NCBI GenBank assembly: GCA_005879535.1
Contig: VBKI01000098.1
Span: 1-52,802 of the forward strand
From: Deltaproteobacteria bacterium
GTDB taxonomy: Bacteria; Myxococcota; Myxococcia; Myxococcales; 40CM-4-68-19
Reading direction: 5' to 3'
Length of the DNA stretch: 52,802 nt
Shown here: positions 12,974-52,744 of the stretch, one piece after another
How the letters are laid out: every line of letters begins with the position of its first letter
How positions within the stretch are numbered: position 1 is the stretch's first letter
The notes under the pieces: model-generated
What the model was told of the DNA's origin: nothing
Database searches by the model: none
What the model saw: only the letters and a program-made list of their open reading frames with translations
Program-made: the position numbers and the translations under genes

Positions 12974-13048
12974 CCGTTTCACGGACGGGCTCGATTCTGA
13001 TCGTCGCCGTCGCTCCCCGGCCCCGGCCGAGTCGCCCGGGCCGAAGGC

Positions 13049-13081
13049 ATGTCCGCCCTTTCAAGATGATTGGGCGGACAT
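13049..13081. repeat. REP-like palindrome upstream of the Y1 transposase
   Basis: A perfect 10-base inverted repeat, ATGTCCGCCC (13049-13058) and GGGCGGACAT (13072-13081), around a 13-base spacer that begins TTTCAAG. The left half plus TTTCAAG recurs at 14218-14234, beyond the transposase. A related GCCCTTTTCAA sits in the palindrome at 52208. Palindromes of this kind beside a RAYT-type gene are the expected substrate of such enzymes. It could also act as a terminator for glnK, though no T-run follows. Confidence 0.65.
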
Positions 13082-13167
13082 TCATTCTCTGGCGGCGCGG
13101 CCAACGTAGCCGCGACCGGCGTCATGCGGTGACGGGCGTGTCAGACCCCACCCGTACGCTGCGGATC

Positions 13168-13821
13168 ATGAAGGCGATCCAACAGGAGCTCCCGCTTCCG
13201 CGCTGGGGAGGCGCCCGCAAAGGCGCGGGCCGGAAGCGGAAATCTCCGCGCAAGAACGTTCAGCACCGGCCGCGAAAGAAGTTCCGCCAAGGCGCGCTAC
13301 ACGTCACCGTTCGCGTGCGCCGCGAAGTCTGGAATCTGCGCACGCATCGATGCTTCCGTGCACTGAAGCGCGCATTCGCCGCCGGATGCGAAAAGTTCGG
13401 CTATCGGCTCGTCCAATTCTCCGTGCAGGGCAACCACATCCACATGATCGTCGAGGCTCCCGACGTGGTCGCGCTTGGCCGGGCAATGAAGGGACTCGAG
13501 GTGCGGATGGCGAGGTCGCTGAACAAAGTGATGTCGCGCCGCGGCCCCGTCTTTGCCGATCGCTACCACGTGCACCTGCTTCGCTCTCCGCGCGAGGCGT
13601 TCCACGCCATCCGGTACGTGCTCGACAACTGGGCCATCCACGGAGCTCGCGAAAAGCAGATCCCGCCCGAAGGGCCGGATCCGCGGTGCTCCGCCTGGCC
13701 GGACGACCAGGGCCCACGGCTCGTCGCCAAAGCGCAGTGGTGGCTCCTTTGCGTGGGTGCCCATCGCGCGGCGTGCCGACTCGGGACTCCCAAGTTCGCG
13801 GCGCGCGCTCTCGCCATTTAG
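13168..13821 (+). CDS. REP-associated tyrosine transposase (Y1/HUH, IS200-like)
   Basis: About 217 residues from ATG 13168, chosen because the conserved basic opening PRWGGARKGAGRKRK follows and upstream sequence is not protein-like. The HUH metal site is His90-Ile-His92 (VQGNHIHMIVEA). The likely catalytic tyrosine is Tyr150 in IRYVLDNW, matching the Y-I/V-x-x-N helix of the family. Single-strand HUH transposases of this type act on REP palindromes and are usually single-copy, domesticated genes. Palindromes lie on both sides. A decayed relative is at 52346. Confidence 0.85.
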   Translation: MKAIQQELPLPRWGGARKGAGRKRKSPRKNVQHRPRKKFRQGALHVTVRVRREVWNLRTHRCFRALKRAFAAGCEKFGYRLVQFSVQGNHIHMIVEAPDVVALGRAMKGLEVRMARSLNKVMSRRGPVFADRYHVHLLRSPREAFHAIRYVLDNWAIHGAREKQIPPEGPDPRCSAWPDDQGPRLVAKAQWWLLCVGAHRAACRLGTPKFAARALAI

Positions 13822-13906
13822 CGGGAAGGTGCCAAGGCACGTGCGACGCGTGGACGCTGAGTAAAAGGAACGGCAGCGCCCGGCCTTGCTGCTACTGTTC
13901 GCAGCC

Positions 13907-14161
13907 ATGGCGACGATTCTCGAGTTGATTTCTATTGCGACGGGGTTCGCCGGGGCGTTGTTCTGGTTCCTCTCGGCCAGCGGCAAGGTCCCTCTAATGC
14001 TGCAGTACTGGGATCGCGCGCCAGCAACTGACCCTTTCTATCAGTCGTTTTTCTACAGCGTGCAGATGAACAAGATTGCCGCCGCATTGACGGGAGTCTC
14101 CGTCCTTGCTGCGGCTGCAGCAAAGTTGCTCGAAAGGCGCACCCGCGTCGGAACCGTGTGA
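13907..14161 (+). CDS. Small membrane protein of unknown function
   Basis: 84 residues from ATG 13907. Two hydrophobic segments are visible: ISIATGFAGALFWFLSA near the start and IAAALTGVSVLAAAAAKLL near the end, separated by a polar loop rich in Y/F/Q. An in-frame start lies seven codons upstream at 13886. I do not recognise the family. It sits between the transposase and the second copy of the CCCTTTCAAG repeat, so it could be carried with that unit or simply be native. Confidence 0.55.
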   Translation: MATILELISIATGFAGALFWFLSASGKVPLMLQYWDRAPATDPFYQSFFYSVQMNKIAAALTGVSVLAAAAAKLLERRTRVGTV

Positions 14162-14217
14162 GGCTTGATAGCGGAATGAACTCCGGCTCCTTACGGAGAG
14201 GGTCGGACGGCGATAGG

Positions 14218-14256
14218 TGTCCCGCCCTTTCAAGTCGCCAATGCCGGCGATTGGCG
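14218..14256. repeat. Second REP-like sequence downstream of the transposase
   Basis: TGTCCCGCCCTTTCAAG (14218-14234) repeats, with one extra C, the left arm and spacer start of the palindrome at 13050-13065, in direct orientation about 1.17 kb away. It is followed at once by a separate 7-base inverted repeat, CGCCAAT (14236-14242) and ATTGGCG (14250-14256), around GCCGGCG. The pair frames the transposase and the small membrane protein gene. Confidence 0.55.
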
Positions 14257-52196: not shown

Positions 52197-52207
52197 CCGC
52201 CCTTTGG

Positions 52208-52309
52208 GCGATCTCTGCCCTTTTCAATCCGCGTATGACGGCGGTGCGCTTGGAAGCGACGCGCCTGTCGGGATGTCGCCATCAAACAATTGAATTGGGC
52301 AGAGATCGC
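52208..52309. repeat. Large palindrome beside the transposase remnant
   Basis: GCGATCTCTGCCC (52208-52220) and GGGCAGAGATCGC (52297-52309) are perfectly inverted; extending to CAAT/ATTG gives 21-base arms with 19 matches around a loop of about 60 bases. The left arm runs GCCCTTTTCAA, similar to the GCCCTTTCAAG of the palindrome at 13049. The position just before the remnant repeats the arrangement at the intact transposase. Confidence 0.65.
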
Positions 52310-52345
52310 TTTCGACGTCGCGGCATGACCTCGACGTGACTCGCC

Positions 52346-52744
52346 GTGAGAGCGTTGGCATCGATCTCGGTGCAGAGCAACCACGTCCACGCCGTGGCCG
52401 AAGGCGACGACGTCCAATCGCTCTCCCGCGGGCTGCAGGGGCTCGGCGCCTCGATTTCGAAACGGATCAATCGGGTCAGCGGCCGCCGCGGGCGCGTGTT
52501 CGACGACCGCTTCTTCGCGCGCGTCTTGCGGACCCCACGCGAGGTTGCAAACGCCCTTGGCTAAGTCCTGCGCAATGACCAGATCCACGAACGGCGCATG
52601 GGAGTCATCGTCGATCGCGGCGACGAGCTGGATGCGTTCTCCTCGGCCGCGCTCCCGGAAGACCCGCCGTTGACATCGCCACCGACGACCTGGCTACTCG
52701 CGACCGGTTGGCGCCGCGCGAAACCGATTCGTGCCGTCGGGTAG
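52346..52744 (+). pseudogene. Decayed REP-associated tyrosine transposase
   Basis: Aligns with residues about 83 onwards of the transposase at 13168. VQSNHVHAVAEGDDVQSLSRGLQGL matches VQGNHIHMIVEAPDVVALGRAMKGL, with the HUH histidines kept; RRGRVFDDRFFARVLRTPREVANAL matches RRGPVFADRYHVHLLRSPREAFHAI. The N-terminal third is missing (stop at 52337 in frame). At 52562 a TAA stands exactly where the catalytic tyrosine codon should be, and the same frame then continues VLRNDQIHERR to a stop at 52744. Beyond it, a TACTAT box and ATG 52796 may start another gene that leaves the window. Confidence 0.75.

Follow-up and report, generated by a model that had tools for sequence, protein, structure and literature searches.

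A RAYT-like transposase gene with a companion hairpin and a PafBC-type promoter in a Myxococcales genome

Results

A RAYT-like transposase gene next to a hairpin

The window analysed here is a contig of 52,802 nucleotides (C98; VBKI01000098.1) from the 5.16-Mb genome of an uncultured Deltaproteobacteria bacterium placed in the Myxococcales (GCA_005879535.1; hereafter the host genome). Between a P-II gene on one side and a peptidase S58 gene on the other, it carries a gene for a RAYT-like Y1 HUH transposase (Table 1). The product matched PF01797 (Y1_Tnp) with 35.3 bits in a profile search of the genome and 34.2 bits by hmmscan (cut-off 23), and in an alignment of 23 sequences residues N89, H92 and Y150 were invariant and H90 nearly so. 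Because an alignment profile of four RAYTs matched no PDB sequence, we used a fold search, in which the best PDB match of the AlphaFold2 model (mean pLDDT only 69.6) was 4er8, the structure of a RAYT in complex with a REP hairpin (E 6.8e-5). These results bear out the preliminary description of this DNA, made from its letters alone, which had called the gene a RAYT of the HUH type. The NCBIfam RAYT model NF047646 scored 37.1 bits, below its cut-off of 80, and the tyrosine motif reads YVLDNW. In class 2 RAYTs this motif is Y---NP (PMC6006769). A proline after the asparagine is absent in four host RAYTs and forms no conserved column in the 23-sequence alignment, and the motif thus matches none of the RAYT subclasses tabulated in the excerpted text of PMC6006769.

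Table 1. Features of the window, by position on the forward strand
Feature	Position	Strand	Remarks
REP-like hairpin upstream of the gene	13049..13081	.	arms ATGTCCGCCC / GGGCGGACAT; inner TT/TT mismatch; short inner stem
PafBC/RecA-NDp-type promoter, TGTCAG-N10-TACGCT	13139..13160	+	-10 ends 7 nt before ATG
RAYT-like Y1 HUH transposase, 217 aa	13168..13821	+	Pfam, NCBIfam, alignment, model, fold search
NHIH motif codons	13432-13443	+	
Tyr150 codon	13615-13617	+	
Lone downstream arm TGTCCCGCCCTTTCAAG (one extra C)	14218..14234	+	~397 nt past stop; no partner arm
Clade-2-type hairpin, GCGATCTCTGCCC..TTTTCAAT / ATTGAATT..GGGCAGAGATCGC	52208..52309	.	adjoins RAYT remnant
Dead RAYT remnant	52355..52726	+	first ~80 residues missing; one in-frame TAA

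Three other full-length RAYTs of the host genome are 40-64% identical to that of the window, and two further fragments lie at G000:C80:54154-54402 (L251, at a contig end) and G000:C106:3044-3223 (L252). Between the window RAYT and the downstream arm is a membrane-type ORF of 91 aa (13886-14161), for which tblastn over the extracted loci gave matches only in loci overlapping the same place.

The hairpin upstream of the gene has 10-bp arms (13049-13058 and 13072-13081) separated by 13 nt. Folded as single-stranded DNA, the sequence from 13040 to 13092 reached -14.7 kcal/mol (z -4.65), whereas its shuffles averaged -5.81 and 0 of 200 were as stable. Between the arms the fold continues through a 2x2 TT/TT mismatch to an inner stem of 3 bp; the palindrome first noted before the gene is real and its arms pair, although the word "perfect" was slightly too strong for it. 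The copy with an extra C that had been placed about 1.17 kb further on is likewise present, but as one arm and not as a palindrome, and the neighbouring 7-bp hairpin (14236-14256) has no relation to it (fold z -1.21; 29 of 200 shuffles as stable). The related palindrome at 52208, next to a dead homologue, was found as described. Its 21-nt arms (52208-52228 and 52289-52309) are 90% complementary, it can also be described as a hairpin with 13-bp arms, and the surrounding single strand (52200-52315) folds with a z of -5.09. These arms, GCGATCTCTGCCC and GGGCAGAGATCGC, differ from those at the window gene, and here too TT stands opposite TT. In the adjoining remnant the match starts only at about residue 82 of the profile.

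The arm repeat as a companion of one RAYT group

The search motif proposed for this element, GCCCTTTYCAA, misses both copies at the gene itself, which read GCCCTTTCAA with one T fewer, and genome-wide it was no commoner than chance: the host genome held 4 matches against 3 in a reversed control, and relaxing the motif to GCCCTTTN{0,1}CAA gave 13 against 14. The full repeat arm is longer than this motif, about GATGTCYGCCCWWTCAAG. Searched with up to one mismatch, TGTCCGCCNTTTCAAG had 56 matches in 12 genomes of the family against 5 in reversed controls, and TGTCYGCCCWWTCAAG had 82 against 5 in the seven genomes of the genus, host included. Thirteen of 30 exact arms lay within 2 kb of a RAYT match, fragments counted, where 0.4 would be expected. 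The host genome has six exact arms, five of which have a RAYT or remnant within 2 kb, and its six congeners have between 1 and 11 each.

By codon-position G+C, 13 of 27 distinct exact arms lie in flat, non-coding-like sequence, 3 are intermediate and 11 fall in the range of known genes. Eleven of the 13 non-coding-like arms sit at a RAYT or remnant and 10 of the 11 coding-like ones lie away from RAYTs. Of the 13 GCCCTTT[N]CAA sites in the host genome, 4 lie within inverted repeats of at least 9 bp, all at a RAYT or remnant; 2 more are unpaired arms on the downstream side of RAYTs, and the other 7 have no such repeat or arm. Since the arms cluster at RAYTs and solitary ones are often coding-like, the element appears to accompany chiefly this RAYT group, with few solitary copies.

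We considered and rejected a high-copy, genome-wide intergenic REP family; the copies are few and those away from RAYTs are mostly coding-like. At eight loci far from RAYTs (L108, L109, L121, L122, L126, L255, L262 and L263) the arm matches read LE[RK]AD in one frame, in coding-like sequence with CTT codons and often AGG, and L108 and L121 appear to share one protein family.

The arms also vary with the transposase. Inverted arms (up to three mismatches) stand upstream of all six clade-1 RAYTs; GATGTCCGCCC arms occur at RAYTs of the window gene's clade, and arms of the second kind, that at 52208, at RAYTs of another clade (G011:C3 and G005:C142). In the clade-specific arms GATGTCCGCCC and GATCTCTGCCC both sides stay complementary: the two kinds differ at two positions, and at each of these the other arm carries the complementary change, which would be expected were the paired form important. 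Because the palindrome is tied to the kind of transposase and changes with its lineage, a cognate recognition element, as the preliminary description had put forward, is a fair reading. The further statement that the element frames the gene applies better to the C87 paralogue, which has an inverted arm pair upstream and an inverted arm downstream, than to the window RAYT, with its upstream hairpin and one downstream arm in the same orientation. In another clade, eight closely related RAYTs of one genome (G003: L187 and L194-L200) have neither these arms nor the promoter described below upstream, and their closeness suggests a recent expansion.

Compared with published systems, as represented in excerpts of the cited papers, the locus resembles the REPtrons formed by RAYT/TnpA-REP in E. 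coli and Stenotrophomonas (PMC2817692, PMC6006769) and would presumably work as a RAYT with cognate REPs does. Both have a Y1 HUH transposase of about 200 aa, and imperfect palindromes next to the gene that change with the transposase lineage and occur as inverted pairs. The window locus differs in its Y---NW motif, its PafBC-type promoter, the few dispersed copies and an NCBIfam RAYT score of 37 of the 80 bits required, and the GT[AG]G foot of REPtron hairpins was absent from both strands within about 20 nt of the window hairpin. With no such foot, no Y---NP, few copies and a low NCBIfam score, we classify the gene as RAYT-like and not as part of a canonical REPtron. TIRtrons (TIRYT; PMC3733652) share with it a RAYT-like gene and low-copy inverted repeats without GTAG; their arms are different, and the TIRtron motif GGGGWSAS had no match on either strand between 12600 and 14700. 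To REP oligonucleotides with double T-T mismatches (PMC7709200) there is a resemblance only, as both the sequence and the position of the mismatch differ.

A PafBC-type promoter between hairpin and gene

The most informative feature of the locus, absent from the preliminary description, is a promoter of DNA-damage type between the hairpin and the gene. It fits the pattern TGTCAGACC-N7-TANNNT and the published PafBC DNA-damage motif, which in mycobacteria is TGTCGG or TGTCAG, ten N, TA, three N and T, with direction mattering (PMC8151990), and which has also been given as tTGTCRgtg, 8 nt and TannnT (PMC5656591); the window promoter has these words, and its spacing is the same. Three host RAYTs (contigs C98, C87 and C53) carry TGTCAGACCCC-N5-TACGCT 28-29 nt before the ATG. 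The pattern TGTCAGACN8TANNNT matched five times in the host genome and not at all in the reversed control, and TGTCAGACC-N7-TANNNT matched at 77 sites in the 12 family genomes against 1 in reversed controls. A search for TGTCAGACC in the open-licence PMC literature gave nothing related among the matches listed, judged by title and start of abstract.

Y1 transposases are the commonest recognisable kind of gene behind this promoter in the 12 genomes (16 of 77 sites, two with broken genes). They belong to two lineages, the RAYT group with 14 sites, one of them broken, and a second with 2. At least 13 of the 77 sites precede repair or recombination genes: recA (2), recN (2, the second named by likeness and an SMC_N match), uvrA (2), rmuC (4), ssb, radA and an imuA-like gene (1 each). 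Further sites precede ftsK (2), DNA methylases (3) and Phd-type antitoxins (4; two called by Pfam, one of these below cut-off, and two by resemblance), as well as genes with no obvious tie to repair (among them galU-like, surE, peptide deformylase, tilS and tetR), and the gene calls at L156, L157, L324, L333, L334 and L339 are weak. Some sites are imperfect: at the host uvrA (on C28, a gene identified by likeness) TGTCAGACCCC is followed by TAGACC as the -10 box, and the host recA has CATCTT. Upstream of one recA copy, TGTCRG-N10-[TC]A was present in all eight orthologues seen, with a complete TANNNT in only two, and the strict pattern had no match in G008 although a recA orthologue is present there.

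The distance from promoter to gene is often fixed. Using a script without preference for position, we found an ATG at an offset of 28 or 29 nt, counted from the first base of the box, at 22 of 65 sites, compared with about one per offset further downstream; the remaining 12 of the 77 were RAYT, recA, contig-edge and short-contig sites. Gene calling by codon-position G+C put 26 of 65 starts at 28-29 nt, a figure biased by a script that favoured start codons at 26-32 nt. An ATG at this distance lies 6-7 nt after the -10 box, which suggests leaderless transcripts.

The host genome also encodes a PafBC homologue in which PafB-like and PafC-like halves are fused (L305:1039-3087). It has two WYL matches, aligns by phmmer to the fused PafBC 6sj9 over query residues 6-675 (E 5.8e-33) and also to chains of 7p5x and 9fnd; no NCBIfam family scored above cut-off. 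This homologue would presumably read the TGTCAG boxes of the host genome. M. xanthus has pafB and pafC, and PafBC-binding sequences are found at 24 of 51 of its genes indirectly affected by LexA (PMC9705874). The promoter sites described here resemble the PafBC regulon and RecA-NDp promoters of mycobacteria and Myxococcus xanthus (PMC8151990, PMC5656591, PMC9705874) in their words, in the 10-nt spacing of the mycobacterial motif, in the repair genes downstream and in the presence of a PafBC homologue. They differ in including transposases of the RAYT kind, which we did not find reported as members of that regulon among the entries listed and excerpts seen from the open-licence PMC literature; nine transposases, their kind not given in the excerpt, were overexpressed in a recA-deficient Mycobacterium tuberculosis strain after mitomycin C (PMC8151990).

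Co-occurrence of hairpin and promoter

We collected 91 RAYT entries, 78 of which could be tested in that they included the 5' end of the gene with 100 nt or more of upstream sequence. The promoter is intact in 14 of these, in 8 genomes. An arm of one of the three kinds lay within 500 nt upstream of 12 of the 14 RAYTs with the promoter and of none of the 64 without it, and arm core 1 alone gave 8 of 14 against 0 of 64. The p value for the former comparison (2e-12) overstates the case, as the entries share ancestry and promoter-bearing ones were the source of two of the three cores; the counts are description more than independent test. In all 12 arm-bearing RAYTs the distance from the end of the nearest arm core to the promoter is 26-58 nt (about 57 nt at the window gene). 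When RAYTs without the promoter were examined more widely, 1 of 16 had an arm with three mismatches, downstream.

For 10 promoter-bearing genes out of 14, the offset between the box and an ATG in the RAYT frame is 28-29 nt. In the other four, all from G010, this ATG lies at 52-56 nt, and two of these have a further ATG in frame at 23 nt (in one also at 20). On a tree of the 76 of 91 entries that were long enough, which left out L226 (promoter-bearing, broken by a stop), the 13 entries with the promoter need only 2 label changes, compared with a mean of 12.2 after shuffling (0 of 500 shuffles as low).

The promoter recurs in the second, distant Y1 lineage. Its intact member (L336:1-770; G005:C190) matches PF01797 above cut-off and the NCBIfam RAYT model with E 3.5e-20, below that model's cut-off, and has the same promoter with an ATG at 28 nt; a seemingly broken relative, L321 (G002:C605), also has it. 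Neither was matched by the RAYT profile search. Five tandem GGGGACACTCGTT-like repeats upstream of L336 resemble the TIRYT consensus GGGGWSAS, and with its GGGGACAC repeats this lineage looks closer to TIRYTs than the window locus does.

Discussion

Taking together the HUH protein with its tyrosine, the hairpin that co-varies with lineage, the promoter words shared with repair genes, the host's own PafBC homologue and the tendency of hairpin and promoter to occur at the same RAYTs, all of them properties of sequence, we consider it probable that the locus is a RAYT/REPtron-like unit with a lineage-specific hairpin and a PafBC-type damage promoter, and we predict that it is induced by DNA damage.

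The main alternative is an ordinary RAYT or TIRtron, whose hairpins represent the ends used in transposition or are left over from REPs, and whose promoter was captured by an ancestor and has no functional meaning. That hairpin arms cluster at RAYTs and that 64 of the 78 testable RAYTs do without the promoter would agree with this, and the two label changes fit a single origin of the promoter in the RAYT group, so chance early capture followed by inheritance could account for its distribution. Set against it are a promoter kept intact in 14 RAYTs of 8 genomes, with the ATG at 28-29 nt in 10, despite a protein divergence that leaves the host RAYTs 40-64% identical to that of the window, and the same promoter in a further Y1 lineage, whose flanking repeats are different. 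We regard this explanation as rather unlikely, though it is the strongest competitor.

Much less probable is that the hairpin is a regulatory site, either an operator or the end of the upstream P-II gene, and no substrate of the transposase. Its position would suit such a role, 57 nt upstream of the promoter in the window and with arm cores 26-50 nt upstream in 11 other RAYTs, but the hairpin gave no terminator match, the kinds of arm track RAYT lineage, the four host GCCCTTT[N]CAA sites within inverted repeats are all at a RAYT or remnant, and the 500 nt upstream of the 64 promoterless RAYTs hold no arm in any case. An insertion sequence of IS200/IS605 type, with a subterminal hairpin at each end, would have the same Y1 fold and could explain the same-orientation arm on each side of the window copy, but none of the other three full-length host RAYTs is a near-identical copy and the downstream arm has no partner, and we think it highly improbable.

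For the damage-induced unit that we favour, the following course of events is proposed. DNA damage would expose single-stranded DNA, which would activate the fused PafBC, single-stranded DNA being an activator of PafBC (PMC11804915). Activated PafBC would then recruit RNA polymerase to TGTCAG-N10-TANNNT, probably giving a leaderless transcript that starts at or next to the ATG, and the transposase would be made. The enzyme might bind its own hairpin where this is single-stranded, perhaps nicking it through Tyr150 and rejoining the ends, with some possible benefit to the cell. Such a chain is coherent because enzymes of this kind act on hairpins in single-stranded DNA, which is established for those of IS200/IS605 and proposed for RAYTs (PMC6006769).

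More tentatively, it is possible, though we would not wager on it, that two distant lineages of single-strand transposases were each recruited into the LexA-independent PafBC response of this family to DNA damage. Single-stranded DNA would in that case both trigger production of the enzyme and serve as its substrate, and the RAYT might be an enzyme that is induced by damage and processes DNA, not just a mobile element. The role of RAYTs in their hosts is not known to have been settled. The excerpted text of PMC6006769 leaves it open as well, and among the papers listed from the open-licence PMC literature, one of which names both RAYTs and DNA damage and another of which, on Moraxella, names RAYTs and the SOS response, we saw none that appears to link RAYTs with PafBC or with the response to DNA damage. 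Were they responsive to damage through PafBC, RAYTs would belong to the genes with which at least one bacterial family answers DNA damage. The hairpins described here, whose arms are specific to lineage, are also candidate cognate elements for RAYTs with a tyrosine motif outside those tabulated in PMC6006769, within the part excerpted.

Three further groups of sites behind the promoter deserve mention. Near-identical promoter-like boxes, TGTCAGACCCG[CG]GTGATATG[AC]T, occur at L324, L333, L334, L339 and L156 (G002 and G005), with no convincing gene behind them. A conserved protein of 87-96 aa (W.CP.C...L.E.) is encoded behind the promoter in five genomes, host included (L360:131-418, L343, L353, L356 and L155); scans of L360 and L356 gave no Pfam match, and the host copy had no NCBIfam match. 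Phd/YefM-like antitoxin genes begin 28-29 nt behind the promoter at L142, L159, L342 and L355, three of them in G006.
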